This document shows, piece after piece, positions 14,055-28,714 of a stretch of DNA of 28,714 nt. The position numbers and the translations under genes were made by a program. This DNA is from a virus, in IMG/VR virus record IMGVR_UViG_3300025769_013719, positions 1 through 28,714 of that record; one strand, 5' to 3'. The notes beneath the pieces were generated by a model. That model was not told the DNA's origin. It ran no database searches and saw only the letters and a list, made by a program, of their open reading frames with translations. Each line of letters opens with the position of its first letter. Position 1 is the first letter of the stretch.

Positions 14055-14096
14055 GTTAGGTTAAATTTAATTTATGTCTATTAATAAATATATTGT

Positions 14097-14129: not shown

Positions 14130-14136
14130 CGTCGTC

Positions 14137-14147
14137 TTATATAAATA
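14137..14147 (-). promoter_or_regulatory. promoter-like TATTTATATAA element upstream of sheath gene
   Basis: Identical in 11 bases to the element before the gp26-like gene. It is 82 bases before the sheath ATG, in a 111-base gap, the second largest in the window. It would allow strong sheath and tube transcription independent of the sugar cluster. Confidence 0.4.
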
Positions 14148-14165
14148 GACTACATTATTCGAAAA

Positions 14166-14423
14166 TTATAGAGGAACAAATAAGCCTTTTGCAGAATCAA
14201 CAGCACCTTTTCCATATTTTAACGTAAGGTCTTTTCCTAGCTCAACTTTCATTTGTTCTGTCTTTGACATAAAACCTTTTACAGCTTCTATCCTTCTTTC
14301 TATAGATAGTTCAGTTTTTTTTATTTCTGCACATTCTTGATCGATTAAAGTTTCTCTTTTTTGAATGTTTAAAATAGCCTCTGTTTCAGATTCTTCTAGT
14401 TTTATACTTCTTTTTATTGCCAT
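14166..14423 (-). CDS. small coiled-coil protein of unknown function
   Basis: An 85-residue, highly charged protein with heptad-like spacing (KLEESETEAILNIQKRETLI through IKKTELSIERRIEAVKGF), predicted mostly helical. It ends with a less charged tail that includes LTLKYGKGAVDSAKGLFVP. Small helical proteins like this occur near tail genes in marine T4-like phages, but I cannot assign a function. It overlaps the upstream glycosyltransferase-like gene by 10 bases, so it is co-translated with the sugar cluster, and the next feature is the sheath leader. It may be a structural accessory protein or chaperone for the sheath. Confidence 0.7.
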   Translation of the reverse strand: MAIKRSIKLEESETEAILNIQKRETLIDQECAEIKKTELSIERRIEAVKGFMSKTEQMKVELGKDLTLKYGKGAVDSAKGLFVPL

Positions 14424-15079
14424 TGTTTGTTATTTGGTAATTTTAAATTTATATCTTGTATAAGTTCTATATTATAGTATTCAAATAATTCACTCCATAG
14501 CAAACTACCTTCGTACTCTTTTGCTATCCAGTACTGAAGCTTTTTATCTAATTGTATAGCTTCTTTCATAAATCCTCTATGGTAACTCCTTGTTCCATCG
14601 TCTTGAAACATTTTATTAATAACGTGTGGATAACAAGTAAAAACTCTTTCATCTATAGCTTTGTAATGAATATAACCATAAACACATTCCTCTTTTGTAG
14701 TTTCATTTAATAGAGGTTGATTTTGAAGATATGCTTTTCTAAAACTATTCTTCATATCTTCTTTATATGTAATAACGTCTGTATCTAAATCTGGTTTAAA
14801 TTTAACTATAGATTTGTATTTATACGGGTCTTTAATTAAGTTAGTAGCATACCAAGTAGACTGTAAGTAAGATATTCTCTTTCTTTTATGTTCAGGTTTA
14901 GTAAATAGAAAGGTTGTTTCATTACAGTATTTTTTATATCTCTCTAATTTTTTTATCCATCTGCTATTCTCTTCTGTTTGCCAAGAATGAACAAATAGAT
15001 CAGTATCTTTATCTAAAAATGGAATAATATTATCTGACAGTCCGTATAAAAAGCCAGATATAAAAACTGCTTTACTCAT
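14414..15079 (-). CDS. putative glycosyltransferase-like protein (WavE-like)
   Basis: A 221-residue protein that begins MSKAVFISGFLYGLSDNIIP and continues with DTDLFVHSW (25-33) and YKSIVKFKPDLDTDVI (about 88-103). The pattern 'ISG...iipfL...DlFvHsW...vvkfkPDl' is typical of a group of putative glycosyltransferases of bacterial surface-polysaccharide loci (WavE-like), in which the Asp in the PDLD segment may hold the metal and nucleotide sugar. No membrane segment is seen. It overlaps both neighbours (8 and 10 bases). The assignment rests on motif style and the surrounding sugar genes; I could not confirm the family. Confidence 0.5.
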   Translation of the reverse strand: MSKAVFISGFLYGLSDNIIPFLDKDTDLFVHSWQTEENSRWIKKLERYKKYCNETTFLFTKPEHKRKRISYLQSTWYATNLIKDPYKYKSIVKFKPDLDTDVITYKEDMKNSFRKAYLQNQPLLNETTKEECVYGYIHYKAIDERVFTCYPHVINKMFQDDGTRSYHRGFMKEAIQLDKKLQYWIAKEYEGSLLWSELFEYYNIELIQDINLKLPNNKQWQ

Positions 15080-15515
15080 AATTTATAATGTAATCTGAAC
15101 ATACTCCTAATCTACCTTCTATCTTATCTTTTTTATATTCAGGCATTACTGCTATACTTCCTTCTATATAGGTACCAGGATTAGCCCACATATAACCTTT
15201 TGATGTAATAATAACGTCATCTGTATCATGCCAAAAGTAATTAAAATATACTCCTCCTCTATCTATTTCTACTAACTTAGATAAAGCATCATGGTTTTTA
15301 CAATGTATCCATAAATACCTATAGTAGTTTTCGATAAAATCAAGAGGTATAGAATACTGTGGTTCATCATGACCTAAAACAAACTTACCGTTGTCATACC
15401 AAAAGTCTACTTCAACGTTATAACCTTTTCTTATAGCATCTACTATGTAAGATGGTTTATTTTCTTTAGATTCATCCTTACCGTTTATATTACCTCTATG
15501 AGAAATTAGAATCAT
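15072..15515 (-). CDS. glycerophosphodiester phosphodiesterase-like protein
   Basis: A 147-residue single-domain protein of the GDPD/PI-PLC-like TIM-barrel superfamily. Key residues are in place: SHRGN with H6-R7, ENKPSYI with E18-N19, NVEVDFW with metal ligands E35 and D37, and the second histidine in LGHDEP (H49). It continues with an LWIHCKN strand and ends at VCSDYIINYE, where the family's last barrel strand is expected. It is short compared with typical GDPDs (about 240), which is common in members from polysaccharide loci. It may remove or trim a glycerophosphoryl group on a glycan or lipid precursor. The start overlaps the HAD-nucleotidyltransferase gene by 20 bases. Confidence 0.7.
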   Translation of the reverse strand: MILISHRGNINGKDESKENKPSYIVDAIRKGYNVEVDFWYDNGKFVLGHDEPQYSIPLDFIENYYRYLWIHCKNHDALSKLVEIDRGGVYFNYFWHDTDDVIITSKGYMWANPGTYIEGSIAVMPEYKKDKIEGRLGVCSDYIINYE

Positions 15516-16872
15516 TATTTTCTAAATAATATTTTAAATCTTCAGGTGTGCCTAATCCCCACATCTTAGTAATATCGAAGGTACGAATCTCTTTTCCATC
15601 TTCAATAGCTTGATTGAATACAGGACAAACATAAAACTCATTGTTTACTCTAATATCTTTTTCAATCATTTTTTCAGCATACTTAACAAAATCAGAACCT
15701 TTCTTCCAATAGTAATAACCAACTGTTGCTGTATCAGAAATAGGATTTTTTTCGGCAACTTCTGTAACCAGCCCTGCTTTATTAATTTTAGCAAACGACC
15801 ATTTAGGGTGAGTGGCTTTAAAAGTAACTATACCTCCATCAGCATCTGTTTCATTCATTTTATATAAAAACTCATTTGAATCCCACTCTACAAACTGATC
15901 TGAGTTGGCAAAGAATAAAGGATTATTGTTGTCTATATATTTCTTAGCTAATAAAGCAGTACAGGCTGCTCCTTCAGTTACTCCGCCTACTTCTACTATT
16001 TTACATTTTGGAGTTATTAAATTAAGTAGAGTATCTAAATTATATTTTTCTCTGTGTTGTTTCTGTACTACATAAATAAAATTAGCTTTAATGTTTAAAT
16101 TCTCAGTAACAACTTGAATCATAGGTTTACCTTTAACATCAATTAAAGGTTTAGGAAATGTATATCCTGCTTGCTCAAATCTACTTCCAGCTCCTGCCAT
16201 AGGAATAAGAACGTTGAGGTTTTCATCTCTCCATGCCGGTATAGATTGTTTTTCTCCCATATCTATCTCTTCTATTTTACTTATAATTTTGTTTACAACT
16301 ACTTCCGATGGGTTTTTTACTCTGTAAATGTAAGACTTACTTCTGGAAGCTGCAAGTAATCCATAAGGCGAATCTTCTACTATAAGAGTTTCTTCTGGTA
16401 GTACACTCATTTTAGATATTGCTGTCCAGTATATTTCTGGATGAGGTTTAGGGTTAGTAACATCCTCTCCTGAAAGTATAAAGTCCATATATTCAGCTAA
16501 TCCTAATTTAGCTAAAACTGTTATAGCAGTCTTACGTATAGAGTTGGTACATAATCCCATTTTAAAACCTTTTTTAGATAAAGCAGACATAATAGTCTGT
16601 AATCTAGGGTCAGGTTTAATGTCTCTCAACATTTCAAAAGTAATTAACTGTTTCTTTTTCCATATTTCATTATGCTTTTCAACAGGTAATCCTTTGTTTT
16701 GAGATAGTACTTTGAGTTTTTGTTTGGTAGTTAAACCATCATAAACAGCAAGATGTTCAGCCCAATCAAAAGCATATTCTCCTAACGCTTCATTTAATGC
16801 TTTAAAGTGTAGATGTTTTGTTTCAATTAAAACTCCATCTAAATCAAAAATAATTAACTTTATACTACTCAT
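15496..16872 (-). CDS. HAD phosphatase fused to sugar nucleotidyltransferase
   Basis: A 458-residue bifunctional protein. Residues 1-205 are a beta-phosphoglucomutase/phosphatase-type HAD domain: DLDGVL (D10, D12), CTN (T109, N110), the motif III lysine K142 in NPKPHP, and VEDSPYG (D167). Residues 218-455 are a GT-A nucleotidyltransferase: VLIPMAGAGSRF (221-232) with KP at 241-242, ANSDQFV for the metal aspartate, and a C-terminal VAEK...GYYYWKKGSDFV core. The fused pair would dephosphorylate (or isomerise) one sugar phosphate intermediate and activate a sugar phosphate with NTP. The second half is clearly related to the separate nucleotidyltransferase at 24750-25481. It overlaps the NeuB-like gene in an ATGA junction. 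The substrate cannot be read from the sequence. Confidence 0.8.
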   Translation of the reverse strand: MSSIKLIIFDLDGVLIETKHLHFKALNEALGEYAFDWAEHLAVYDGLTTKQKLKVLSQNKGLPVEKHNEIWKKKQLITFEMLRDIKPDPRLQTIMSALSKKGFKMGLCTNSIRKTAITVLAKLGLAEYMDFILSGEDVTNPKPHPEIYWTAISKMSVLPEETLIVEDSPYGLLAASRSKSYIYRVKNPSEVVVNKIISKIEEIDMGEKQSIPAWRDENLNVLIPMAGAGSRFEQAGYTFPKPLIDVKGKPMIQVVTENLNIKANFIYVVQKQHREKYNLDTLLNLITPKCKIVEVGGVTEGAACTALLAKKYIDNNNPLFFANSDQFVEWDSNEFLYKMNETDADGGIVTFKATHPKWSFAKINKAGLVTEVAEKNPISDTATVGYYYWKKGSDFVKYAEKMIEKDIRVNNEFYVCPVFNQAIEDGKEIRTFDITKMWGLGTPEDLKYYLENNDSNFS

Positions 16873-17699
16873 TTGAATCTTTCTCTATAATAATCGTGAT
16901 TAAATATTTGCTGATCGTTAAACTTGTTAAGTTCCCTATATTGATCTTCTTTTGACATTTTACTAAACTTCCTTAAGTTTGATAGCATTTTAGGGGTTAC
17001 AGAAACTTTTCCGTCTCTAGTATCATTAATGTCTAAAATAGTAAAATGTCTTTCTAAAACGTCTATACCTTGAAATATAGCAAGCTTAGAAGAAAGTAAT
17101 TTATCTTCATGAGGGTTAGAATGATCACTTAGTCCTACATTTTTAACTCCTAATGCTCTATAAAAATCTATATTCTGTAAATTAAGTCTATCTAAAGGGG
17201 TAGGGTATATACATGTGCACTGCATCATATAATACTCTATTCCCATTTCGTTTAAGTTTTTTATAGTTAATTTTATTTCTTCTAGAGATAAACTAGAAGT
17301 AGAAAAAAATAATCTTTTAAATTTAAAGGCTTTTAACTTTTTACCGTAATCAAAAGCAGGTATTGAATAACCAGATATTTTTAAGTTATCATATCCTAAT
17401 TCATTAAATCTAGGAGCATGTTGTGGTACAAAAATAGTAGTCATAGACTCAACTCCATACTCCATACATTTAAATATAAAAAGCTCTTCGTCTTTTCTGC
17501 TAAGTTCTAATCCTTTTAGTCTCTCATATTCAGGTTCATACGGTCTATAATCTTCGTAGTTTTCTCTATAGGTAAGATTACTAGCATATATGGTTTGTAT
17601 TTTAACTATATCACTACATACTGCAGCAGTTTTTATCATTGACTCTAAAGTCTCTAAATTACCGTTATGATTTTGACAAAGTTCAGATATTAGTTTCAT
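16869..17699 (-). CDS. NeuB-like nonulosonic acid synthase, lacking the SAF domain
   Basis: Condenses phosphoenolpyruvate with an amino sugar to give sialic, legionaminic or pseudaminic-type acids. Signatures of the TIM-barrel domain are present: SELCQNHNG with E6 (for E25 of the meningococcal enzyme), VKIQT with K33, LKISGYSIP with K107, CTCIYPTP (161-168), GLSDH with H193, and ERHFT with H218; the two histidines are the metal ligands. At 276 residues it lacks the C-terminal antifreeze-like (SAF) domain that closes the active site in the usual 340-350 residue enzymes. The usual His of the HC..YP motif is Q160. It overlaps the dehydrogenase gene by 17 bases and the downstream fusion gene by 4. 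The closest general name is an N-acetylneuraminate synthase homologue. Confidence 0.75.
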   Translation of the reverse strand: MKLISELCQNHNGNLETLESMIKTAAVCSDIVKIQTIYASNLTYRENYEDYRPYEPEYERLKGLELSRKDEELFIFKCMEYGVESMTTIFVPQHAPRFNELGYDNLKISGYSIPAFDYGKKLKAFKFKRLFFSTSSLSLEEIKLTIKNLNEMGIEYYMMQCTCIYPTPLDRLNLQNIDFYRALGVKNVGLSDHSNPHEDKLLSSKLAIFQGIDVLERHFTILDINDTRDGKVSVTPKMLSNLRKFSKMSKEDQYRELNKFNDQQIFNHDYYRERFK

Positions 17700-18516
17700 T
17701 TAACTTTTCTATTACTCTTTTATATGCTTTTTCTTGTGCTTCTATTGCTGTTCCACCTATATGAGGTGTAATAAGAATACTATTATGGTTCTCTATCTTT
17801 AGAGCTGTTGCTTTAGAAGTATGTTCTTCTTTAATTACGTCGGTAGCATAACCTAGTACTTTACCTTCGTACAGTCCTTTAAGTATATCTACTTCATCTA
17901 CTACTTCACCACGACTAGTATTTACAATATAGATATTATTTTTGAATTTTCCAACAAATTCTTCGTTTATATAATTTATATTTACATCTTTGTAATCTAT
18001 ATTAATAGATAAAAAATCAGTATCACTAAAAAAATTATTATCTACAAAATCTATATCAGCTTTTAATACCTGTTTAAATATAGGTTTAGTTATTTTCTCT
18101 AATATTTTTCCTAATCTACCGTATCCTAGTATACCTAAAGTTTTTTCTTTCAATTCAACTATAGTACCTATCTGTCTGGGAATGGCCAAACAAAGATATA
18201 AGTTATGTTCTGCGGTAGAATGAATTTGTTCTAATATACTATCATTCTTTATCGATATAACCGGTATAGAGACGTTTATATGATTGTCGCCAGTAGATGG
18301 AGTAATAATCCCTTTTATACTAGATTCTTCTATATCTTTATCCTCTATAATATACTTTAAGTAGTTAGGAGCGGCAAATAAATAATCAACGCTTTTAAAT
18401 ATATTAAGCTGGTCTTTTGGTAACCCTACCATGCTGATGCATTTGAAATTAGCTTTTACATATTTGCTAAAGTTAGGTAAATGATTAAATGGGGTTAAAA
18501 ATCCTATAGTTTTCAT
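17683..18516 (-). CDS. D-2-hydroxyacid dehydrogenase (SerA-like)
   Basis: NAD-dependent oxidoreductase of the phosphoglycerate/lactate dehydrogenase family. The nucleotide-binding loop is GILGYGRLGK (128-137). The substrate-binding and catalytic residues are R202 in NTSRGEVVDE and H252 in ITPHIGG, with ATDV (224-227) before the acidic partner region. AEHNLYLCLAI (102-112) is the family's hinge helix. At 277 residues it is somewhat shorter than usual (310-330), mostly in the N-terminal substrate domain. In a sugar cluster it could oxidise or reduce a 2-hydroxy acid such as glycerate or a phospho-hydroxyacid that the HisC-like enzyme then aminates, as in serine-type pathways. It shares an ATGA overlap with the upstream gene. 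Confidence 0.75.
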   Translation of the reverse strand: MKTIGFLTPFNHLPNFSKYVKANFKCISMVGLPKDQLNIFKSVDYLFAAPNYLKYIIEDKDIEESSIKGIITPSTGDNHINVSIPVISIKNDSILEQIHSTAEHNLYLCLAIPRQIGTIVELKEKTLGILGYGRLGKILEKITKPIFKQVLKADIDFVDNNFFSDTDFLSINIDYKDVNINYINEEFVGKFKNNIYIVNTSRGEVVDEVDILKGLYEGKVLGYATDVIKEEHTSKATALKIENHNSILITPHIGGTAIEAQEKAYKRVIEKLNETNI

Positions 18517-19856
18517 ATTTCAAAAAATGAATTATTAATTAATGTTTCTTTATAATTTGCTTTAGTTTTCCAGAACTCATGTTCACAATTTATAATCTGT
18601 AAGCTATTGTCTCTTGTTTTAGTAACTGCGCTATTAATATTTGTAATCATAAGTAATTCTGCAAATAACCTAGTGTCTGGGAGATTCTTAGATAAAATTA
18701 CAACTATTCCTTTATAATTATTTTTTGCTACTGTGTTTTGTAGATTAATAGATTGTATATCTGCTTGAATAACTTCAGCATTACCTAAACTAAGAGTAGG
18801 GTTATAAAAATTTGGCTCTTCTAAATACTTCCGATTATCTCTAGAATAGTCACATAAACCTTTATAGATAGATTTATAGAATTTATCTTCTTTAGAGTTT
18901 AATTCCATTTCTTTAATCATACCAGGATCAATTAACTGCAAGTAGTGTTCTCTATTCCAATTAACAAAACCGTCTCTTAATTTACTTCCATCTCCAAAAA
19001 GAAATTTACTAAACTTATTTTCAATATTGCGGAACTTTTGAGATAAGTACTCTTCATTCGTATAAATCTTTATTCTGCTGTTAAAAAAAACTCTACTAAA
19101 TTTATTAAAACTTCTAAATGTACTTTGTCTGTAGAAAGAAGAAGGATGTATACTTCCAGTATTTTGGTTTATATTATTTGCTTTTAAAATATTAGTAGAT
19201 GTTTCCTTATGCTGTTTTACTCCTTCGAGTTCAGGTTTTAAAAGATCAGGAACAAAAAAATCTATTGTATAATCTTCAACTTTTTTTGTAGGTTGGTAAT
19301 ACTCGACTAGTTGATCTTTAGTTTGAATTTTTGTAATACAGTCTTCTTTTTCAAATACTATATTATGTTCTTTATTTACATAGATAAAAACGTTCTTAAG
19401 GTTACCGTTTAAAAATATCGCTCCATTAAATCTAGTAAAACCAGGATGAACGATAGAGCTAAATTCTTTCCTTCTAGTATAAAGATCAGAAAGTTTTATA
19501 GTCTCATTTTTAAAAGTAGGTTTTACTGAGAAATGAGAGGGTAGGTTAGTTTTCATATCATTTGATATGAGTGTTTCAATCATATTGAACTTATGTCTTA
19601 AAGCTAATGGTTGATCACCGTATAAAGAAAATTCTAATATTCTAGAGGCAAAGCTATAATATTGATTTATGGTAGTATTAAACCCGTCAGTACCGTATAG
19701 TGTGTTGAATCTAATATTATTTACTAGGGTTTCATAATCAAAATAACGATACTGTGATACAGCATATTTTAGGTCAAAGTCATCACAGTGGTATATATCG
19801 GTAGTAGCAAGTACTGTGTCTATAACTTTATGACTTGAAGGGGTCAGGTTGATCAT
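18513..19856 (-). CDS. orphan protein of the sugar cluster
   Basis: A 447-residue protein I do not recognise. It has no membrane segment or signal peptide and no clear P-loop, GxGxxG or metal-binding motif. It contains CDDFDLKYAVSQYRYFDYET (24-43), a HPGFTRFNGAIFLNGN segment near 137 and a hydrophobic YKGIVVILSK strand near 390 that could be the core of an alpha/beta fold. It is placed between the HisC-like enzyme (29-base overlap) and the dehydrogenase (4-base overlap), so it is certainly part of the operon and may be a novel enzyme or a scaffold for the pathway. Composition looks like that of its neighbours. Confidence 0.7.
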   Translation of the reverse strand: MINLTPSSHKVIDTVLATTDIYHCDDFDLKYAVSQYRYFDYETLVNNIRFNTLYGTDGFNTTINQYYSFASRILEFSLYGDQPLALRHKFNMIETLISNDMKTNLPSHFSVKPTFKNETIKLSDLYTRRKEFSSIVHPGFTRFNGAIFLNGNLKNVFIYVNKEHNIVFEKEDCITKIQTKDQLVEYYQPTKKVEDYTIDFFVPDLLKPELEGVKQHKETSTNILKANNINQNTGSIHPSSFYRQSTFRSFNKFSRVFFNSRIKIYTNEEYLSQKFRNIENKFSKFLFGDGSKLRDGFVNWNREHYLQLIDPGMIKEMELNSKEDKFYKSIYKGLCDYSRDNRKYLEEPNFYNPTLSLGNAEVIQADIQSINLQNTVAKNNYKGIVVILSKNLPDTRLFAELLMITNINSAVTKTRDNSLQIINCEHEFWKTKANYKETLINNSFFEI

Positions 19857-20847
19857 AATGTAACTTTAAATCGTAATTAAATTTAATATATTCTATTCCA
19901 TCAGGAAGTATAACTGTTCTAAAAGACATTCCTAAATCATTAAACTTTTTTAAGTTATCTACTTTATCCCATCTTTTAACAAAAAACCAACTAGCATCAG
20001 TATCTATAATCGTATGCTTTAATTTTTTAAGTTGTTTGATTGCTATTTTTTTATCAGTATAAGTCTTTTTAATATAAGAGTTGTAGTCATTTATATTATC
20101 AAGAATAAATTCAGTATACTTAGCTCCTACTCCATTTATTTCATACATGGCTCTAAATTTTGAAAGGTATTCTAAATTTTCTTTACTTCCAACTAGAAAT
20201 CCTACTCTACAGCCTGCTGCTCCATAAGCTTTTGAAAATGTCTTTGTGACTATTAAGTTTGGATATTTTTTTACTAAGTGTATACAGCTATCTTGTTCCG
20301 TAAACTCTATATAAGCTTCATCAATTATAACTGTTTTGCCAGTCTCTAGCAAAGTAATTATTTGGCCTTCTGTATATAAGTCTCCTAATGGAGAATTAGG
20401 ATTAGCTAAAATAATAAATTTAGTTTTATTATCAATTAAGTATAGAAGGTCATTAATATTTAATTTTGTACTTTTATATTTAGCTTTTCTGAGTTCTACT
20501 TGGTATAATTCACTAAATACTTTGTACATTGGAAAACAATAATCAGAAGAAACTATATTATTTCCTTTAACATCAAAAGTTTCAAAAATAGTTTTAATAG
20601 CAAAAGTTGAACCAGGTGTTAATAGTAAGTTTTCTACTTTGATATCGTAGTAACTACATATTTTATCTTTAAGTCTAGATGTATTAGGGTAGAAGCATAT
20701 ATCTGTTTGTTTTAAACTACTAAAAAATTCTTTTAACTGAGTATCAGGAATAGGGTAGTTTCTTTCATTCTGAGTAAGTACATATTTATGTAGGGTTTTA
20801 TCTTCTTGATTACATTTTCTATATACGTCTTTTAAATGTTTTTTCAT
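19828..20847 (-). CDS. HisC-like PLP aminotransferase or decarboxylase
   Basis: Fold-type I, class I/II PLP enzyme, 339 residues. Active-site residues are visible: ANPNSPLG (148-155, N149), IIDEAYIEF with D176 and Y179, TFSKAYG with the cofactor lysine K206, and R214 in GCRVGF. The family includes histidinol-phosphate aminotransferase, threonine-phosphate decarboxylase (CobD) and the capsule enzymes of Campylobacter that make ethanolamine phosphate or serinol phosphate. The C-terminal IKFNYD segment lacks the usual Arg of the 'lRis' motif, so the substrate may lack a typical carboxylate. With a dehydrogenase, a HAD and two nucleotidyltransferases around it, making an amino-alcohol or amino-sugar unit for a glycan is plausible (inference). 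It overlaps the next gene by 29 bases. Confidence 0.75.
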   Translation of the reverse strand: MKKHLKDVYRKCNQEDKTLHKYVLTQNERNYPIPDTQLKEFFSSLKQTDICFYPNTSRLKDKICSYYDIKVENLLLTPGSTFAIKTIFETFDVKGNNIVSSDYCFPMYKVFSELYQVELRKAKYKSTKLNINDLLYLIDNKTKFIILANPNSPLGDLYTEGQIITLLETGKTVIIDEAYIEFTEQDSCIHLVKKYPNLIVTKTFSKAYGAAGCRVGFLVGSKENLEYLSKFRAMYEINGVGAKYTEFILDNINDYNSYIKKTYTDKKIAIKQLKKLKHTIIDTDASWFFVKRWDKVDNLKKFNDLGMSFRTVILPDGIEYIKFNYDLKLHYDQPDPFKS

Positions 20848-21774
20848 TTAATTTCTAATTTGAGTTAAAATAGGTGTGAGTTCTTTATATGAACAATTTT
20901 TACAGTGACTTGTAGGTTTATTTGTAGAGCATCCACTTTTTACTGCTTTATAGTCTTTAGATTCTCTAATTTCTTCTATAGAACTTTCAAATAGATTGCC
21001 GAATGGTTTAGCACCCGTGTTCATACAGCACATTTTAACATGTCCTTCTACTGTAGTATATATACCTTCTTCTACCCAGAAACAATCACTAAAGTCCCAT
21101 TGACTTTTGCCTTTAATATTGTCTTTCCAACTTTTTCTTAAGTAATCGATTTGATCTAATGTATAACCACCAGGAAGAGATTTATTTTCACTCCAATCTT
21201 GTGCAATATTTAAACGTAATTCTTCTAATCCGTATCCATTGACTATTTCGTCATTTACTTTCTGTATATCACTGACGTTTTGGGGATTCACGACATAATT
21301 ACAGGTTACTTTACATCCTTTTCTATCTATGTCTTTAAAATTAGCTAAAAAAGACAGTAACCTACTCCATTTTGCAGGAGAACGGTCTCTTTCGTAACTT
21401 TTATCATATCCATCAATAGAGAAGTAAAGTAAATCTATATACTGTAATGCATTTTGAAATCGCTCTCTCAATGGTCTACCTTCACCTATGTTATATTGAC
21501 AATTAGTAGCAACTATTAGGAAAGCATTAGGAAAATATTCTTTAAAGAGTTTACATATTTCATCAAATTGAGGATGAAGCATTGGTTCACCCATTCCCAT
21601 AAGTTTAGCTTCTTTTATAGGGTGATGTTTAAGACCGTCTAACATCTTTCTATATTTTGATAGTGGCATATGCTGTAATGCCCCAATAACCTCGTCTCTG
21701 TTACAAAAAGAACACTGTAAGTTACAGTAGTTAGTAGTTTCTAAGTAAGCATATGTTATAGGTTTGTTGCTCAT
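20848..21774 (-). CDS. radical SAM/SPASM protein (copy 1)
   Basis: Radical S-adenosylmethionine enzyme of 308 residues. The cluster motif CNLQCSFC places C17, C21 and C24 on the [4Fe-4S] cluster that cleaves SAM, followed by a GMGEPMLHP loop typical of the barrel. The C-terminus has CCMNTGAKPFGNL and a CSTNKPTSHCKNC region, a cysteine-rich SPASM-type domain for auxiliary Fe-S clusters. Such proteins modify peptides, sugars or other substrates by radical chemistry; the substrate here is unknown. It abuts the HisC-like gene without a gap and overlaps the ParB-like gene by one base. A second, divergent copy lies at 23888-24763. No precursor peptide gene is seen, which argues for a sugar-type substrate. 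Confidence 0.8.
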   Translation of the reverse strand: MSNKPITYAYLETTNYCNLQCSFCNRDEVIGALQHMPLSKYRKMLDGLKHHPIKEAKLMGMGEPMLHPQFDEICKLFKEYFPNAFLIVATNCQYNIGEGRPLRERFQNALQYIDLLYFSIDGYDKSYERDRSPAKWSRLLSFLANFKDIDRKGCKVTCNYVVNPQNVSDIQKVNDEIVNGYGLEELRLNIAQDWSENKSLPGGYTLDQIDYLRKSWKDNIKGKSQWDFSDCFWVEEGIYTTVEGHVKMCCMNTGAKPFGNLFESSIEEIRESKDYKAVKSGCSTNKPTSHCKNCSYKELTPILTQIRN

Positions 21775-22718
21775 TAAACGTACTTATCTTTAAACTTTAA
21801 GCATTTAGTAGTAAACTCAAATTCAGTTTGTTTTTTATCTAAATCAAAATGAAAATTTAGATACTTATATTCTCCTTTATTAAAAAAATTAGGTTCTAAT
21901 GACTGCCCAGTCCATTTTCTCATACCACAAGGTATAGGAATAATAAAAGGAAAGTTCATACTATTAAAAGATGTCATAATCATTCTATGAAAGCTATGAT
22001 ATACTAATTTACGAAAAAAAGTCCATATAGCAGGAAATAAAATACCTTCTTTTCTCATTTGCATAAATCCGTTGATTGGAAAATCATGACTCCAATCCGG
22101 GTATTTAATATCATACTTATCTACTACTTTTTTTACTTCTTCTATATCGTCCCATCCTATAGTATCAGTTACTTCGTTTACAAATTTCTTAGAGTAGGTT
22201 ATATCAACCCCATTTGTAGTAGTTTTTAAGTTATTATAAATTATAGAATGAGGAATTTCTTGATATAGCCATTCTCCTGTGATTCTATTTTCTGCTTTAG
22301 GCTTATAGTAGTACTCATATAAACTAGGAGTAGCAAAGCCACCTCTTATTTGTCCGTCTCTACCGTTATAATTACTAGTTTGACCTTTAAATTTTAAGGT
22401 AGTATGATATTCAGGCTTGTCAAAATTTTTATACTGCTTTAATCCATAAGCAATTTTCTTATTGGGTTCATAGTATTGTCCATGTAATTTAAAATCATCA
22501 AGATCACAAAAAGGAGAGTTATATTTTTCATGGAATTCCTTTAGCTCATTATACTTATGTTGAGATTTATGGATATTAACAAAAAAGTAACCTTCATCAT
22601 ACACACCTTGGTATTCTTCAAAAGCTTTTAATCCTGATAGATACCTATACAGTACGTTATCCATAGATAATGTATCGTATGGTTTAAGATCATTAAATAT
22701 TCCTTTCCACCATTTCAT
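21774..22718 (-). CDS. unknown protein, family shared with 26815-27747 (copy 1)
   Basis: A 314-residue protein related to the one at 26815-27747. Shared features are an N-terminal WKxxFNDLKPxDxLxxxxVLxRY motif (here from W4), an NGRDGQIRGGFATPSLYEYY region matching RDGKVTPGFGTWDWKEYF, a WxxDFPI segment, and a C-terminal block RKEGILFPAI...HRMIMTSFNSMNFPFIIP. That last block resembles the ParB/sulfiredoxin-like nucleotide-binding fold (a 'GxHRxxA...ipv' pattern), but only loosely. A role in the sugar pathway is inferred from context alone. It overlaps both neighbours by one base, so it is tightly coupled to the radical SAM protein and the GT8-like enzyme. Confidence 0.75.
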   Translation of the reverse strand: MKWWKGIFNDLKPYDTLSMDNVLYRYLSGLKAFEEYQGVYDEGYFFVNIHKSQHKYNELKEFHEKYNSPFCDLDDFKLHGQYYEPNKKIAYGLKQYKNFDKPEYHTTLKFKGQTSNYNGRDGQIRGGFATPSLYEYYYKPKAENRITGEWLYQEIPHSIIYNNLKTTTNGVDITYSKKFVNEVTDTIGWDDIEEVKKVVDKYDIKYPDWSHDFPINGFMQMRKEGILFPAIWTFFRKLVYHSFHRMIMTSFNSMNFPFIIPIPCGMRKWTGQSLEPNFFNKGEYKYLNFHFDLDKKQTEFEFTTKCLKFKDKYV

Positions 22719-23416
22719 TATAACATTTCATATTGGTTCATCCAGTTTAGTTTATAGTCACCTTTCCATGTATCGTGCCATGGTCCTCCGTTAGTAAAGT
22801 GTATAGCTTTAGGGTTAACAGAGCTATCATAATCTCCTTCTAGCCAATTATACTCTAAAGGTATACTACCAATTTTTTCATCTTCTGTCCACATCATACG
22901 GTGTAGGTATTTTGGCGATTCATTATTTATTACTTCGGGAATCAAATCCTTACAGTGTTTGTCTGAACAATTAAATAACATTAAGCTTGACCAGTTTTTT
23001 CTCGGGTATACTGTCTGCTTAAGCCCATCCATTTTAGTATTATTACTTGGAGTATATTCATGTTGACAGCACATAACAGAGTATTTAGAATCAAAGTACT
23101 TTAACACATCGGTAATATCTGTTTGCCATAGAAAATCTGAATCACAAAATAATGCTTTTCCTTGATAATTGTTCAGATAAGGAACTAAAAATCTTGAATA
23201 TGTAAATTCAGTAGATGCTAAAGGATCTTTTTCTCTACTATAAATTCCTTTGTTTATTAATTCATCTAACTTTAGAGGTATTATCTTGACTCTACTGTTA
23301 TAGTTTCTTATAGATGCTTTACAGACTTCATAAGGAGGATTAATTATACCTTTTCCTAAAGGATCTTTATCTTGCCTTGAATCGTATCCTATGTATATGT
23401 TAAGATTTTCTTTCAT
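22718..23416 (-). CDS. GT8-like glycosyltransferase
   Basis: A 232-residue GT-A fold protein. It opens with NIYIGYDSR, has TEFTYSRFLVPYL (69-81) and ALFCDSDFLW with the metal-binding D92-S-D94 (DxD), then MDGLKQTVYPRKNWSSLMLF and a C-terminal AIHFTNGGPWHDTW block, where HFTxGGPW is the conserved histidine-containing end of these enzymes. The absence of a signal or membrane segment suggests action in the cytoplasm on a lipid-linked or soluble acceptor. Together with the nucleotidyltransferases it provides the transfer step of the pathway. It overlaps the SDR gene by 17 bases and the ParB-like gene by one. Confidence 0.75.
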   Translation of the reverse strand: MKENLNIYIGYDSRQDKDPLGKGIINPPYEVCKASIRNYNSRVKIIPLKLDELINKGIYSREKDPLASTEFTYSRFLVPYLNNYQGKALFCDSDFLWQTDITDVLKYFDSKYSVMCCQHEYTPSNNTKMDGLKQTVYPRKNWSSLMLFNCSDKHCKDLIPEVINNESPKYLHRMMWTEDEKIGSIPLEYNWLEGDYDSSVNPKAIHFTNGGPWHDTWKGDYKLNWMNQYEML

Positions 23417-23891
23417 CTTTCATTTTTGATATTTGACTATATGGAGTTTTATGCCATATTGATAATTCTCCTACCTCAATATGAGATGGAAGGTAAATAC
23501 AATACTCAATAGCATCAACTATTTCTCTATACTTTAAGGAAGGTAAATCTGATTCTAATAACCCTGGGTTAATATCTATAATTCTGCATTTTTTATCACT
23601 GTTTAACCGTAAATTATTAGATAGATGACTTAATGCTGCTTTAGAAGCAGAGTATAAATAACCTTTTGATATATTAGGGTACTTACTTCTACTGATGATA
23701 TTAACTATCGTTTTATCAGTATCTTTCCATTTATCAAATACCTCCATAAGAAGTTCAGTTTGACTGAAGCTATTATGTCTGTTATTAATAAATACATCGC
23801 TAGTCTCGTCAAAACCGTCTACTACGTGATTAAATCGTTTTGCTATTTCTAATCCTAATCCTCTATAACTATTTGTTATTGAAATTTTCAT
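23400..23891 (-). CDS. minimal short-chain dehydrogenase/reductase (SDR)
   Basis: A 163-residue SDR-like oxidoreductase. The cofactor loop is reduced to TNSYRGLG (6-13), followed by FINNRH (35-40), the position of the family's NNAG. The catalytic triad is plausible: S67 in IISRSK, and Y80 and K84 in YSASKAA. DINPGL (about 106-111) matches the usual vNPG turn. Typical SDRs have about 240-250 residues; the missing part lies mainly between beta-3 and beta-4 and in the substrate-binding C-terminus. It may reduce a keto group of a sugar intermediate. The 4-base ATGA overlap with the radical SAM gene suggests it is co-translated and still in use. Confidence 0.7.
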   Translation of the reverse strand: MKISITNSYRGLGLEIAKRFNHVVDGFDETSDVFINNRHNSFSQTELLMEVFDKWKDTDKTIVNIISRSKYPNISKGYLYSASKAALSHLSNNLRLNSDKKCRIIDINPGLLESDLPSLKYREIVDAIEYCIYLPSHIEVGELSIWHKTPYSQISKMKDERKS

Positions 23892-24763
23892 AAACTATTT
23901 TTTAATATTTCAAAACTTGGTTTCCCGAATAACTGCCCGTTAACTGTGCATTTATTACAAGGGCTTTCAGAACGATCTCCTTTTACAAGTCTTTTTCTTA
24001 TAACGTTTAAATCTTCTCCTAACCATACTTCTTTTAATCTTTGTTTAGCAAGATTTCCTACTTTTCGTTCTTTTTGCCAATCGTTTGCGCAAAATATAAC
24101 TTCTCCATCCCAGTCTACAAACATTTTATAGAAAGGATAATGACAAGGTTGACCCTTAAGTTTATCAACAGACTCTTCATCCATACCTAACCAAGTAATA
24201 GATCCTCCTCTATTGTTAAGATTAAGTCCATAATCAGCTTGCGAATAATGAGCTCTATATCTATACTTAGATTTATCTATACCTTTCATGATATTATCAA
24301 ACTTCTCTATCTGATCTATTCCGTCATAAAGATTTATGTAAAGCAAATCTAAACCAGAATTAAAAAGTTGTTTAGCATATTCCGGTGTAAGTTTATCTCC
24401 GTTAGTATTACATTCAGCTGTAGTATCTGGTAATTTATCTTTTAAAATTTTTATAATTCCAGCAAATTGTTTATTGAGTAAGTTTTCACTAAACCCACTA
24501 TAAGAAATTTTACCTTTATAATTATCCAAACTTAAATTATTAGCAATTGCTTCAGCTGTTTGCAAAGACATATTCAAATTCCTATTAGGATAAACATCTT
24601 TATCGTGTCTAGGACAGAACACACACGTTCTATTACATAATTCAGTAGTATTTATTTCTACTGTTAGCAGTGAACTTAAAGGGTTAGAGGTATCTACATT
24701 ACTGAAATGTAATTTCTCTTGCTTCTTTCTGTGATTTAAAAATGTATCTTTATTTTCTGCCAT
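23888..24763 (-). CDS. radical SAM/SPASM protein (copy 2)
   Basis: A 291-residue radical SAM enzyme. CNRTCVFC places cluster cysteines at C43, C47 and C50. The core has an AECNTNGDKLTPEYAKQLF segment, and the C-terminus has CHYPFYKMFVDWDGEVIFC with CNKC near the end, a SPASM/twitch-type auxiliary cluster region. The N-terminal 30 residues are a polar extension not seen in copy 1. It overlaps the nucleotidyltransferase gene by 14 bases and the SDR by 4. Having two divergent copies in one cluster suggests two chemically distinct steps or two sugars. The substrate is not readable from the sequence. Confidence 0.8.
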   Translation of the reverse strand: MAENKDTFLNHRKKQEKLHFSNVDTSNPLSSLLTVEINTTELCNRTCVFCPRHDKDVYPNRNLNMSLQTAEAIANNLSLDNYKGKISYSGFSENLLNKQFAGIIKILKDKLPDTTAECNTNGDKLTPEYAKQLFNSGLDLLYINLYDGIDQIEKFDNIMKGIDKSKYRYRAHYSQADYGLNLNNRGGSITWLGMDEESVDKLKGQPCHYPFYKMFVDWDGEVIFCANDWQKERKVGNLAKQRLKEVWLGEDLNVIRKRLVKGDRSESPCNKCTVNGQLFGKPSFEILKNSL

Positions 24764-25481
24764 GCAAGTAGTCTTGTAAATCTTCTGGTGTTCCCATTTG
24801 GTATATATTATCGACTTGAGTAATTACTATACGTCTTCCATCTTTAATAGCGTAATTATAAACTGGTGCTACATAAAATTCATTATTGAGTCTATCGTTT
24901 GCTTCTATCATCTGTTCAGCATACTTTACAAAATCAGATCCTCTATTCCAGTAGTAGTACCCAGCAGTAGCATCATTAGATATTTGTTTCTTTTCTGCTA
25001 CTTCAGTTACATATCCTTCTTCATCTGTCTTTGCATATGACCATTTAGGTCCTTGGCCTTTAAAGCATGGCATACCTCCATCATGTAGACTTAACCTACT
25101 AAAGGTTTCACTAGGATTGTAGTCAATCATTTGATCTGAGTTAAAACTTAGTAGAGGAACACGATTATTAATAAACTCTTTTGCAGTAAGTAAAGTACAA
25201 GCAGCACCTTCAGTTATTCCATTTAGTTTAATTATTTCTATATTATCATGTCCTATTATTTCGTTGAATATAGAAAAATCATACTGTTCATAATCAGCTT
25301 TTTGACATAAAATTATAAACTTAAAGTTTTTATCAAACTCTATATTTAAATTTTCTATAACTCTACGTATCATTGGTTTTCCTTCTACATCTATAAACGG
25401 TTTAGAGTCTTTATACCCTTTTTGTCTAAATCTTGATCCTCTTCCTGCCATTGGCAGTACTATGTTAAAAAATTGTTTCAT
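24750..25481 (-). CDS. sugar nucleotidyltransferase (stand-alone)
   Basis: A 243-residue GT-A nucleotidyltransferase that activates a sugar or other phosphate with an NTP. The signature IVLPMAGRGSRFRQKGY (7-23) with K27-P28 binds the nucleotide; NSDQM carries the metal aspartate; VAEKKQISNDATAGYYYW and GSDFVKYAEQMI match the second domain of the HAD fusion at 15496-16872 almost residue for residue. The two are paralogues, by eye about half identical. The family includes glucose-1-phosphate uridylyl/thymidylyltransferases and the cytidylyltransferases of capsule loci. It overlaps the SGNH gene by 17 bases. Confidence 0.82.
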   Translation of the reverse strand: MKQFFNIVLPMAGRGSRFRQKGYKDSKPFIDVEGKPMIRRVIENLNIEFDKNFKFIILCQKADYEQYDFSIFNEIIGHDNIEIIKLNGITEGAACTLLTAKEFINNRVPLLSFNSDQMIDYNPSETFSRLSLHDGGMPCFKGQGPKWSYAKTDEEGYVTEVAEKKQISNDATAGYYYWNRGSDFVKYAEQMIEANDRLNNEFYVAPVYNYAIKDGRRIVITQVDNIYQMGTPEDLQDYLHGRK

Positions 25482-26175
25482 ATATTTTATTAGAAATTGT
25501 TGTACAGTCTTCTTTGGTTGGATGCATAGTTTCGTTTTTAGTTATATCAAAATACAGAAACTTATCTAAATTTAAATCACTTGATTTTTTAATCTTTTGC
25601 ACATGTCCTGATATTGAATCAAATGCTATAAATAGGTAATTAAGTTTTTTATGCTCTAAATATCCCTGTAATGCTAGTACTTGAGAATAGTACAAAGAGA
25701 ACATATCTTCTTTATAATTAGGGTTATATGTAACCATTGCTTTTACATATTCTCTTTTAGCAAGATAGAGTGCTTTAGCATTTTCGTCTTTTCTTAAATC
25801 ATCGCAAACTATATCTGTTTCATCAGTATCGGTAATAAGGTGTAAAGGAGAGCTAATTCTTCGATATCTATGTAGTTTAGAAGTAAATCTAGGTTTTTCA
25901 AAATCAGCAGGAGTAACGTTTATATTCCATCCTGAATATGAAAAATAATGTCTATGAGGCCATGTTAACCCTATTACTACACTTGTATCTATACTATCTA
26001 ACTTATTTAAGTGGTGTATTGAATTGGTAAAAATAGAACCAAACGATTGTCCGTTTTTAGCTTGATTATACAAAGTAGTATTTGTAAGTTCTGCTAATTT
26101 AACAGGCCAAGTGTCTTCGTCTTTTAGCCCATCACCAGCAGTAAAACTACATCCGTTTATATATAAGTTTTTCAT
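25465..26175 (-). CDS. SGNH/GDSL-like hydrolase or acyltransferase
   Basis: I place the start at the ATG at 26175 (236 residues), which forms an ATGA overlap with the methyltransferase stop. An ATG six codons upstream would create a 22-base overlap. The N-terminus MKNLYINGCSFTAGDGL has the block I signature of the SGNH superfamily with S10 as nucleophile. NGQSFGS supplies a glycine/asparagine loop, and MHPTKEDC near the C-terminus has the block V histidine. The typical 'DxxH' spacing is not exact, so activity is likely but not certain. In sugar clusters such enzymes add or remove acetyl or other acyl groups. Confidence 0.65.
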   Translation of the reverse strand: MKNLYINGCSFTAGDGLKDEDTWPVKLAELTNTTLYNQAKNGQSFGSIFTNSIHHLNKLDSIDTSVVIGLTWPHRHYFSYSGWNINVTPADFEKPRFTSKLHRYRRISSPLHLITDTDETDIVCDDLRKDENAKALYLAKREYVKAMVTYNPNYKEDMFSLYYSQVLALQGYLEHKKLNYLFIAFDSISGHVQKIKKSSDLNLDKFLYFDITKNETMHPTKEDCTTISNKIYETIF

Positions 26176-26828
26176 ATTGTTCCTATTCCACATTTATATC
26201 CGTCTTCTCTTTTAAATTCTTTAGCTTTATCTATCCCTATCCAGCTACTTTTTACTTTGTCTCCAAATAAGGATTTATAGTATCTTTGTTGTTGTATTCT
26301 TCCGTCTATTAAAAAACTAAAATCAGTATTAAAGTGTTCTTTTAACTTAACCATATTAGTAGATGCATTACAATTGTATTTGGCAATATCAGGTCCATCG
26401 TCTAAAACAAAGTCTACATCTTTTATTAAACTCATATCATGATTATAGTAACAAGTTTGATCATTATCAATAGTAACGTCTACTAGATGTACTTGACTAT
26501 TCTTATAAAAACCTGATCTTTTACCTAATTCGTAATACTCTTTGTTGTCTTCAAACGAAATAACGCTACCGCCGTAATTTAGATCTTTAAAAATTGTGCT
26601 TATAAGTAGTGTAGTAACTCCGCTACCATATTCTACTATATTTTTAGGTCTCTTACTATGAATATACCCTGTTAAGTATAAAGCTACAGCCATTCCCACA
26701 CCGGTAAACTTACTACTCCAGTATCCGTCGTACCATAGATCGTAGTATTTAGGAAAGTTTATTTGAAAATACTCTCTTAACTCTACTATTGACTTATCGT
26801 TATGTTTAATAAACTCAAAATAATTCAT
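26172..26828 (-). CDS. class I SAM-dependent methyltransferase
   Basis: A 218-residue Rossmann-fold methyltransferase. Motif I is NIVEYGSGVTT (63-73), with the acidic partner in ISFEDN (E93-D94) for the SAM ribose. DFVLDDGPD (139-147) is the post-II/IV region where catalysis and metal binding occur in O-methyltransferases; the doubled aspartate suits a metal-dependent O-methyltransferase. The N-terminal 60 residues are a helical cap. It overlaps both neighbours (ATGA with the SGNH gene, 14 bases with the ParB-like gene). A role in decorating a sugar is inferred. Confidence 0.72.
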   Translation of the reverse strand: MNYFEFIKHNDKSIVELREYFQINFPKYYDLWYDGYWSSKFTGVGMAVALYLTGYIHSKRPKNIVEYGSGVTTLLISTIFKDLNYGGSVISFEDNKEYYELGKRSGFYKNSQVHLVDVTIDNDQTCYYNHDMSLIKDVDFVLDDGPDIAKYNCNASTNMVKLKEHFNTDFSFLIDGRIQQQRYYKSLFGDKVKSSWIGIDKAKEFKREDGYKCGIGTI

Positions 26829-27747
26829 ATTTTCCTAAACACTCTTTAATTATATCTTGAGAAGATAAATAAAAAGTTATCTCTTTCTTTTCAGTATTTA
26901 CATCTAATAAAAGATAGGTATTTTCATTGTCTATCTTTCTATAGTCTTTAAACTTAGACCTAATATAATATCTACTTTTTTTACTTTTTGGTAAAATAAA
27001 AGGTACATCTGATTTAGCTAAAGCTGTCATAGCAAATCTATGTAATCCGTTACCTGGAAAAGAATTAGCTGAGACTGCTCCTAATATAGGAAATAATAAC
27101 CCATCTCTTTTTACAGATATATAAGATAAAATTGGAAACTCAAAGTTCCAATCTTTCCATATTTTATCATAGTTTTTTATAGTTTCATTTATATAGTCTA
27201 TATCATTCCAATCTTCTATTTCGTTAATAAATTTTTTTATTATACTTACATCAGTACCTTCTAACAACGCTAGATTCTCTTCTATAATTTTATACGGTAT
27301 TTCCAAGTAAATATTTTCTCTGGATGTAATACCTTTATCTACTCTCAGAAAATATTCTTTCCAATCCCAAGTGCCGAATCCAGGAGTTACTTTACCGTCT
27401 CTCAACTGAAAATTAGGCATATCTCTTTTTATATAATTTGGATCATAGTTTTGTTTGAATGCTCTTTTTCCGTAAGCTTCAAATTTTATTATCTGTAAAT
27501 CATTAATATTAATATTTTTATGATTAAATATAGTATGTAATTTTTTTACTCTAGGATCTGTTAATTGATCTTCTGTTATTCTTAAAAAATAATGACCATT
27601 CTGTTCTTGTACTTTACATTCATCAAAAGAACTTATAGTATCTTTATATCTTTTTAATACATCTTCTATGTCTAATATATCAAAAGGTTTAAGATCGTTA
27701 AAAAACGGTTTCCAAAAATTTACACCTGTGTTTTTATGAAGAAACAT
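26815..27747 (-). CDS. unknown protein, family shared with 21774-22718 (copy 2)
   Basis: A 310-residue protein sharing motif blocks with the 314-residue protein at 21774-22718: NFWKPFFNDLKPFDILDI near the N-terminus, RDGKVTPGFGTWDWKEYF in the middle, WNFEFPI, and KRDGLLFPILGAVSANSFPG with GLHRFAMTALAKSDVPFILP. The final block, with its 'dGl...G.HR.A...l...vpfi.p' pattern, resembles the ParB/sulfiredoxin fold and is clearer here than in copy 1. The family is unnamed to me. It is coupled by 14-base overlaps to the oxygenase upstream and the methyltransferase downstream. Confidence 0.75.
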   Translation of the reverse strand: MFLHKNTGVNFWKPFFNDLKPFDILDIEDVLKRYKDTISSFDECKVQEQNGHYFLRITEDQLTDPRVKKLHTIFNHKNININDLQIIKFEAYGKRAFKQNYDPNYIKRDMPNFQLRDGKVTPGFGTWDWKEYFLRVDKGITSRENIYLEIPYKIIEENLALLEGTDVSIIKKFINEIEDWNDIDYINETIKNYDKIWKDWNFEFPILSYISVKRDGLLFPILGAVSANSFPGNGLHRFAMTALAKSDVPFILPKSKKSRYYIRSKFKDYRKIDNENTYLLLDVNTEKKEITFYLSSQDIIKECLGKYELF

Positions 27748-28303
27748 CTATAATTTTATTAAATCGATAAAAAGCACTTGTAATTTCCTTAGATGGTTCA
27801 TCTTCTGATGTGATATTTAGTGCGATTGCTCTTCTAACTCTACGATGTTTATTCACCACTCTATGCCAGGTTGGAAAATGCTTGTCTCCAGGGCAAAAGA
27901 TTAGTCCTCTATTTTGTTTCCATTGTACTTCCTTAGAAAACTCTCTATTTTTATCTAATAAGTAAGTTCCAGTATTACCGAAACAGTAGATTACGAGAGT
28001 CCATAACTTAGTTACATGATCCATATGTATTTCCTGTTCTGTGTGGGGTGCGGATGATAGCCAGTGCACCCTTGCCCATGAATGATATGGTTCTCGAAAT
28101 CTCATAGGTTTATAAATTTTTAAAATATCATTTTTTATTGTATAGAACTCTCCTAAAAGTTGATAATATAGAGAGTAATTAAATAAAAATTCTTCTTCTT
28201 TTGAAAAATCATAATTTAAAATATCATCTACTATATAATGTGTAAATGGTTCATTACAGGGATTTTTTATTGCATCAAATATTTTATTTTTATTGATAAT
28301 CAT
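27734..28303 (-). CDS. 2-oxoglutarate/Fe(II)-dependent oxygenase
   Basis: A 189-residue double-stranded beta-helix oxygenase. The iron triad is H93 and D95 (HMD) plus H147 (TWHRV), and the 2-oxoglutarate-binding basic residue is likely R158 in RRVRRAIALNI. The beta-helix framework (LWTLVIYCFGNTGTYLL and NRGLIFCPGDKHFP) is typical of prolyl-4-hydroxylase-like and small phage oxygenases. It would hydroxylate a sugar, peptide or lipid; a glycan or its precursor is the likely substrate from context. Three bases separate it from the HAD gene. Confidence 0.75.
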   Translation of the reverse strand: MIINKNKIFDAIKNPCNEPFTHYIVDDILNYDFSKEEEFLFNYSLYYQLLGEFYTIKNDILKIYKPMRFREPYHSWARVHWLSSAPHTEQEIHMDHVTKLWTLVIYCFGNTGTYLLDKNREFSKEVQWKQNRGLIFCPGDKHFPTWHRVVNKHRRVRRAIALNITSEDEPSKEITSAFYRFNKIIDVSS

Positions 28304-28306
28304 AAT

Positions 28307-28609
28307 TTAATCTTTAAAAAAGCTATCAGGGTGTACACCTCTATCATCTATAAATATATCTGCATCGAAAGGTTTAAAATAGAGATGATGATATTTACAT
28401 CCCCAGCTTTCTAGCTGTGCTTCTGTTATAGGTCTGTAGTATTTTTCTCCTCTACCGCTTTTATTTCCTCTTGCAGTATAGTATATTACTGTATGACCTT
28501 CGTCAAACATTTTATTTATCTTTTCTATCCTATCTTTGAAAGGTTTTCTTCCTATAACCGGTCCTTCTTCTTTGCAGATAGTATCATCAATGTCTATTAC
28601 GTACTTCAT
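28307..28609 (-). CDS. small HAD phosphatase (capsule-biosynthesis type)
   Basis: A 100-residue HAD phosphatase of the small, cap-less kind associated with capsule loci. DIDDT (6-10) gives the nucleophile D6 and acid D8; YYTARG (43-48) contains the motif II threonine; DIFIDDRGV (89-97) is the motif IV acidic pair. It probably dephosphorylates a sugar-phosphate intermediate before or after nucleotide activation. The start overlaps the 3' end of the NeuA-like gene by 23 bases. Confidence 0.75.
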   Translation of the reverse strand: MKYVIDIDDTICKEEGPVIGRKPFKDRIEKINKMFDEGHTVIYYTARGNKSGRGEKYYRPITEAQLESWGCKYHHLYFKPFDADIFIDDRGVHPDSFFKD

Positions 28610-28714
28610 ATATTTTTTCTACTAATTTAAAATCTGTTTCTGTATCTACGTCAACTAACTCTTCTTCAGGCCAGTCTATAACGTAAGGATGAGGATCATC
28701 TTCTGTATTAGAAA
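28587..28714 (-). CDS. C-terminal fragment of a cytidylyltransferase (NeuA-like), 5' end outside window
   Basis: An open frame from the window edge to a TGA at 28589-28587, 41 codons with no start in the window. It reads SNTEDDPHPYVIDWP then EEELVDVDTETDFKLVEKIY and ends VRNRH. The 'vDvDtetDfkLvE' end matches the last helix of CMP-sialic acid synthetase-type cytidylyltransferases, in which the Asp residues bind metal or nucleotide. A NeuA-like role fits the NeuB-like gene in the same operon. The fragment is short, so the call rests on the C-terminal motif and context. Confidence 0.5.
   Translation of the reverse strand, partial: SNTEDDPHPYVIDWPEEELVDVDTETDFKLVEKIYEVRNRH

Follow-up and report, generated by a model that had tools for sequence, protein, structure and literature searches.

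What does a T4-like phage make with a long run of sugar genes placed beside its tail genes, and where does the product go? The question is raised by IMG/VR record IMGVR_UViG_3300025769_013719, a single viral contig of 28,714 bases, the whole of which was analysed here (the window). Its left part, up to 14.1 kb, has PHROG matches to T4-like genes: sheath, tube, baseplate hub and wedge, the gp32-like single-stranded DNA-binding protein and UvsX. The right part encodes enzymes of sugar metabolism. Our reading, with slightly less than even confidence, is that this region forms the 3′ half of a glycan island owned by the phage and linked to its tail fibres. The island is ∼30 kb long in a relative; its core would make a CMP-activated ulosonic acid, and the glycan would most likely be placed on a tail or fibre protein of the virion. 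Sequence-based reports of phage-made glycans are common, but few of them give a pathway, a product or a target.

Recurrence of the island and its ulosonate core

The cluster includes a NeuB-family synthase, an enzyme that condenses phosphoenolpyruvate (PEP) with a sugar precursor. A scan of 2.9 million viral contigs for this phage NeuB gave 47 other contigs or loci, carried by uncultured, mostly marine T4-like phages. A profile re-scan was saturated (46 loci, all within the first set), and a scan with the pyridoxal phosphate (PLP) enzyme of the cluster reached just 2 contigs beyond those already found. No homologues of NeuB and of the 447-aa cluster protein unk447 were seen among 50,697 phage genome records.

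Looking for the same gene order in related contigs had been suggested in a preliminary description of the window; the order was fully consistent in 42 of the 47, and in 34 of the 47 the cluster is followed by the same sheath and tube genes. The core order is NeuA, HAD phosphatases, radical SAM enzyme 1 (rSAM1), PLP enzyme, unk447, 2-hydroxyacid dehydrogenase (2HDH), NeuB, HAD-NTP transferase fusion, g17, g18, o85, sheath, tube and hub. The five exceptions are L023 and L027, with a moved PLP enzyme, and the rest, with an extra or displaced HAD or NTP-family gene. Since most core genes have dN/dS ∼0.05–0.2 against most relatives, a mark of purifying selection, and the order is so consistent, we consider the cluster to be more than a chance collection.

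The same counts bear on whether the junction could be an assembly chimera, or a host locus joined to phage tail genes, the two outcomes that the preliminary description regarded as fatal to it. Such an artefact has a negligible probability, because the cluster recurs in 47 other contigs and runs into the same sheath and tube in 34, which are independent, come from many metagenomes and keep the junction in the same order; the nearest relative, L002, is 96% identical to the window across it. An assembly chimera is ruled out by these contigs, and nothing that would speak for one was found.

The window contains roughly half of the island, so the path was not complete as had been described; relatives continue ∼14–16 kb further upstream to a tail-fibre gene. 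In the 191-kb contig L006 the island occupies 113,024–142,730 (29.7 kb). Its left border is a Peptidase_S74 tail-fibre protein, after which come two small open reading frames (ORFs) without assignment, and its right border is the sheath; in both L006 and L025 it runs on upstream beyond NeuA to tail-fibre-like genes. The added part encodes two GT7 galactosyltransferase-like proteins that carry a fused LamG lectin domain (L104:6170–8967), another radical SAM protein and a UDP-sugar dehydrogenase (UGDH)-like protein, as well as GT28-like and sulfotransferase-like proteins read by eye; the sulfotransferase of L014 is backed by Pfam.

The chemistry of the cluster points to a CMP-activated ulosonic acid made via a subfamily of NeuB that has no SAF domain. 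Canonical sialic acid synthases bind the sugar through this C-terminal (antifreeze-like) domain. The phage proteins, 276–277 aa long, have a barrel with the invariant E, K, T, S and H catalytic motifs (alignment A1, aligned with PDB entry 8h2c; PF03102, E 1.5e-29); the PDB alignments stop at residue ∼247, before the SAF domain, and no scanned cluster protein had a Pfam match to that domain. The CMP-sugar synthetase partner (NeuA, PF02348) is present as family f15 in 22 relatives, its end being inside the window.

From GTDB we collected 47 cellular NeuB relatives (L051–L097; ∼326 aa), identical to the phage proteins at ∼42% of positions at most, apart from one short partial match. They come from Pelagibacter, Prochlorococcus, Thaumarchaeota, Peregrinibacteria and others, candidate phyla among them. 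NeuA is found nearby at 42 of these 47 loci, a UDP-sugar dehydrogenase at 30 and 2HDH at 11. In the NeuB tree the phage sequences group in a single clade (100/100) with a long stem, next to this cellular SAF-less subfamily and apart from canonical NeuB. Because of this position and the shared neighbours, the phages are judged, from sequence, to carry an ulosonate module of cellular type in an old copy, to which radical SAM, PLP and HAD-NTP enzymes and unassigned proteins have been added. The subfamily is shared with abundant ocean cells (Pelagibacter, Prochlorococcus, Thaumarchaeota); no product seems to have been assigned to it, and it may be the route to a surface sugar not yet recognised. 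The legionaminic and pseudaminic acid pathways are unlikely, because no Pfam family of an NDP-sugar 4,6-dehydratase or of a DegT/PseC-type aminotransferase is present in the window cluster; an acetyltransferase family is absent from it too, and its PLP enzyme belongs to PF00155.

For this pathway we infer a substrate, an order of steps, a product and a target. The SAF-less NeuB would condense PEP with an aldehyde that is phosphorylated or comes from a dehydrogenase, phosphates would be removed by HAD phosphatases, and NeuA would activate the ulosonic product with CTP, with 2HDH, the HisC-like PLP enzyme, a short-chain dehydrogenase/reductase (SDR) and the radical SAM enzymes building or tailoring the sugar. 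Assembly and decoration of the glycan would follow in the cytosol, through soluble glycosyltransferases and, in relatives, also sulfotransferases and SGNH enzymes; the acceptor would most likely be a virion tail or fibre protein, and the result a variable particle coat.

Gene layout, names and expression signals

Eighteen complete minus-strand ORFs lie at 14,414–28,609, and a nineteenth gene is truncated at the window edge (C-terminal 41 aa, 28,587–28,712; PF02348, CTP_transf_3, NeuA-like). The spacing among cluster genes is 0 or negative throughout, with a single exception of 3 nt. The nineteen, nearly all overlapping, coding regions of the preliminary description were thus recovered, the last one cut, and its view of a sugar-pathway island with an unusual gene combination next to the tail genes of a T4-like phage was supported. 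Its placement of the cluster directly before the sheath had to be revised: a small ORF of 85 aa (o85) and a 111-nt gap intervene. Features are listed in the direction of transcription.

28587..28714, minus strand: NeuA-like CMP-sugar synthetase, C-terminal 41 aa, family f15; matches f15 C-termini of 22 relatives (f15 member L023 against PF02348, E 7e-11)
28307..28609, minus strand: g01, small HAD-type phosphatase, capsule type, DxD motif; NCBIfam BT0820 E 3e-6 and EcbF-BcbF E 3e-5, both below cut-off
27734..28303, minus strand: g02, possible 2-oxoglutarate (2OG)-Fe(II) oxygenase; HxD...H motif by eye, no Pfam match; PHROG 274 ('DNA endonuclease V') E 3e-6
26815..27747, minus strand: g03, 310-aa paralogue of g10, G-x-HR motif family (alignment A3)
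26172..26828, minus strand: g04, possible methyltransferase; sequence motif only, without Pfam support
25465..26193, minus strand: g05, SGNH-like esterase or acyltransferase; GCSFTAGDG motif by eye, no Pfam match
24750..25481, minus strand: g06, sugar-phosphate nucleotidyltransferase (NTP2); PF00483 E 1.4e-8, phrog_3980
23888..24763, minus strand: g07, radical SAM/SPASM enzyme (rSAM2); PF04055 and PF13186, CxxxCxxC present
23400..23891, minus strand: g08, short SDR oxidoreductase; PF00106 E 1e-8
22718..23416, minus strand: g09, GT8-like glycosyltransferase; PF01501 E 0.0016, below cut-off; phrog_28018 E 6e-52
21774..22718, minus strand: g10, ParB/Srx-like, variable between close relatives; AlphaFold2 (AF2) pLDDT 90, weak ParB matches
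20848..21774, minus strand: g11, radical SAM/SPASM enzyme (rSAM1), core; PF04055 E 5e-15, PF13186
19828..20847, minus strand: g12, HisC-like PLP enzyme, core; PF00155 (Aminotran_1_2) E 1e-37; TIGR01141 E 3e-55, below cut-off
18513..19856, minus strand: g13 (unk447), hypervariable core protein, C-terminal half weakly GT-A-like; A2 alignment, AF2 pLDDT 82, Z ∼5 to GT-A folds, raised dN/dS
17683..18516, minus strand: g14, D-2-hydroxyacid dehydrogenase (2HDH), core; PF02826 (2-Hacid_dh_C) E 4e-25
16869..17699, minus strand: g15, NeuB-family PEP-condensing synthase without SAF domain; PF03102 E 1.5e-29, PDB 1xuu and 8h2c aligned over the barrel only
15496..16872, minus strand: g16, HAD phosphatase-NTP transferase fusion; PF13419 and PF00483, ∼56% identical to a cyanophage S-CAM9 protein
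15072..15515, minus strand: g17, small conserved protein, GDPD-like N-terminus by eye; phrog_34507 E 7e-28, no Pfam match
14414..15079, minus strand: g18, possible glycosyltransferase (GT221); family conserved in 19 relatives, no Pfam match
14166..14423, minus strand: o85, small tail-module ORF; aligned with immuto and Mel-JY01 ORFs directly before sheath
14055..14165, minus strand: gap with TATTTATA promoter-like element before sheath
12330..14054, minus strand: tail sheath (gp18-like); phrog_23 E 8e-75, 64% identical to immuto
11805..12290, minus strand: tail tube (gp19-like); phrog_4542 E 1e-26

The enzyme list given earlier was sustained in part. Pfam backs HAD, two NTP_transferase copies, NeuB, the dehydrogenase (2-Hacid_dh_C), the PLP enzyme (Aminotran_1_2), two Radical_SAM+SPASM proteins and one SDR. 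GT8 stayed below cut-off; for the '2OG oxygenase' (g02), the 'methyltransferase' (g04), the SGNH 'hydrolase' (g05) and GT221 (g18) no significant Pfam match appeared even at E≤5, and these four names are therefore readings of motifs by eye. The protein g12 is closest to the HisC family, yet under the HisC cut-off (NCBIfam). The G-x-HR motif is present in the alignment of g03 and g10, for which the best structural match was ParB, a weak one (Z 2.5; E 0.13); a structure search with the AF2 model of g10 gave no convincing match in PDB or BFVD. The idea that g03 and g10 might be ParB-fold serine kinases supplying the HisC-like enzyme was considered and set aside. The model of unk447 has only a weak likeness to GT-A folds and nucleotidyltransferases, in its C-terminal half, and profile searches of PDB with g10 and unk447 returned nothing useful.

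The o85 protein aligns with a small ORF located directly before the sheath in Flavobacterium phage immuto and Microcystis phage Mel-JY01, both without a sugar cluster at this site; o85 is therefore most likely a part of the tail module rather than of the sugar pathway. As the window sheath is 64% identical to that of immuto, the host of the window phage is likely to belong to Bacteroidota. Elsewhere in the structural region (2315–10681), large proteins of 899, 714, 447 and 441 aa had no PHROG match.

Late expression of the cluster had been expected from its coupling to the sheath unit; this expectation was not supported. The 8-mer TATTTATA occurs within 110 nt upstream of the sheath at 34 of 35 loci, of the tube at all 35, of g23 at 19 of 20 and of the hub at 17 of 29, with ∼0.03 occurrences per gene expected by chance; o85 and nearly all sugar genes have none in front of them (NTP family, 9 of 97). 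On the coding strand of the window it is found at 14055–14165 (sheath), 12291–12329 (tube), 11693–11804 (hub), 10682–10713 (g23) and 2293–2314 (g29). As the 8-mer was chosen after the window had been viewed, independent tests of it come from immuto and the other genes and not from the window; in the stretch of immuto that was read all 9 occurrences precede annotated genes. The T4 late-promoter motif TATAAATA was not enriched (11 matches, 10.85 expected by chance), and the informative pattern was the reverse complement of TATAAATA on the coding strand. We regard TATTTATA as a candidate late promoter of the clade; its presence before the sheath, and not before o85 and nearly all sugar genes, suggests that the sheath starts its own transcript and that the island is read from upstream. 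In the gap between tube and hub (11693–11804) there is also a hairpin with a T run after it, resembling a terminator (AACCCGGC...GTCGGGTTTTTT).

Compared with L002, the window is 96% identical over 7,600–18,527, up to a sharp, recombination-like break at the unk447 gene. Beyond the break there are blocks of 84–86% identity, interrupted by unk447 and g10; for these two genes most of the DNA could not be aligned, and the proteins are 38–45% identical. Across relatives unk447 (447 aa, with an HPGxTR motif) is 28–41% identical while neighbouring genes are 60–99% identical, and its dN/dS, 0.33–0.57, is the highest observed. Such alignments describe a mosaic, allelic pattern inside a conserved operon.

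Candidate destinations of the glycan

In a Kyte-Doolittle scan of 619 cluster ORFs none had more than one hydrophobic segment, and just 11 had a single, marginal one, all from soluble enzyme families; the upstream island halves of three relatives (L104–L106) encode no multi-spanning membrane proteins either. Glycan assembly thus looks cytosolic. With neither flippase nor exporter encoded in the cluster, we favour a cytosolic transfer of the glycan to a protein of the virion tail rather than a change of the host surface.

Several observations weigh against a virion target. Neither an acceptor protein nor a dedicated CMP-ulosonate transferase was identified in the analysis. In a second lineage (L037, L040–L048) the same core is located near lysozyme and terminase genes, without linkage to the sheath. 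Similar clusters have been read as modifying the host O-chain (PMC7029224), and because host flippases could supply export, a host-surface target keeps some likelihood in spite of the missing membrane genes. It is conceivable, though on balance unlikely, that the island remodels host lipopolysaccharide (LPS) or capsule during infection to block superinfection, by means of the lipid carriers, flippase and ligase of the host. A change of host surface is the published reading of pelagimyophage host-recognition clusters (PMC7029224) and of cyanophage sugar clusters (PMC7824862); moreover, the cellular relatives of the NeuB module sit in what look like surface-sugar loci, and GT8-like genes are typical of LPS pathways. 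Still, no membrane protein resembling Wzx, Wzy, an ABC transporter or an initiating phosphoglycosyltransferase was found in any cluster.

One may speculate beyond decoration of the virion as such: a phage-specific CMP-ulosonic acid outside the known nonulosonic acids, made by the SAF-less NeuB with 2HDH, HisC-like and radical SAM enzymes, could be placed on tails by unk447 acting as a hypervariable transferase, giving serotype-like allelic virion coats. We consider this proposal rather improbable in its full form. With a core of conserved order in 47 contigs, and a hypervariable core gene and surroundings, the choice between a coat on the virion and one on the host becomes testable with a defined enzyme set.

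Some of the enzymes invite a different view of the product, a soluble secondary metabolite, antibiotic-like or signalling, made from amino-acid and sugar parts. The radical SAM pair, the PLP enzyme, the 2-hydroxyacid dehydrogenase and a possible oxygenase and methyltransferase would suit it, and for a second cyanophage cluster a comparable product has been proposed (PMC7824862). We see little chance of this, as the many glycosyl- and nucleotidyltransferases, the CMP-sugar synthetase and the tail-fibre neighbour fit a glycan better, and Pfam scans of the window cluster detected no non-ribosomal peptide synthetase, polyketide synthase or carrier protein. A sugar attached to phage DNA, like glucose or arabinose in T-even phages, is more improbable again. 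Phages do make their own nucleotide sugars for DNA modification, and the background here is T4-like, but no PF00303 protein (thymidylate synthase/dCMP-hydroxymethylase type) is present in the 191-kb relative G001, a possibly incomplete record, and other base chemistry is possible; such a protein is present only in G006, with the records again possibly incomplete.

Comparison with known systems

Our literature searches found no direct precedent for a phage NeuB, a SAF-less NeuB or virion glycosylation, and the locus is best described through its partial likeness to four systems. With the nonulosonic acid pathways (Neu5Ac, legionaminic and pseudaminic acid) it shares the logic of NeuB plus NeuA and a barrel that was aligned with the SiaC and PseI structures; it differs in the missing SAF domain and in having no NDP-sugar dehydratase or DegT aminotransferase in the window. 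In the cellular SAF-less module NeuB likewise lies beside NeuA, often also beside a CBS-UDP-sugar dehydrogenase, and at 11 of 47 loci beside 2HDH; however, NeuB of cells has ∼326 aa and that of the phage 277 aa, and the cells mostly lack the radical SAM, PLP, unk447 and HAD-NTP partners.

The sugar/LPS clusters of cyanophages (P-SSM2, S-CAM9, S-PRM1) likewise have a HAD-NTP transferase fusion, ∼56% identical, beside glycosyltransferases, whereas they adjoin transaldolase, psbA and plastocyanin genes and contain no homologue of NeuB or unk447. As the fusion is found at ∼56% identity in S-CAM9, S-PRM1 and other Synechococcus phages, this gene moves among T4-like phages of different hosts.

The host-recognition clusters (HRCs) of pelagimyophages and cyanomyophages are large hypervariable islands among structural genes, with tail fibres, many glycosyltransferases, UDP-glucose dehydrogenase and radical SAM cassettes (PMC7029224). 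Likeness to an HRC was judged on relatives, the window holding the right half only: a hypervariable island rich in glycosyltransferases, placed with tail fibres within the structural region, is seen in L006, which has GT7 and radical SAM genes, and in the mosaic L002. The HRC of SAR11 phages is located between VrlC and the neck gene gp14 (PMC7029224), two genes that were not located here. The present island is located between the Peptidase_S74 tail fibre and o85-gp18, in a clade nearest to Flavobacterium phage immuto, and has a fixed-order NeuB/NeuA/2HDH core that is not mentioned for the HRC in PMC7029224. We class the island with the host-recognition clusters of marine T4-like phages, as a new form of them.

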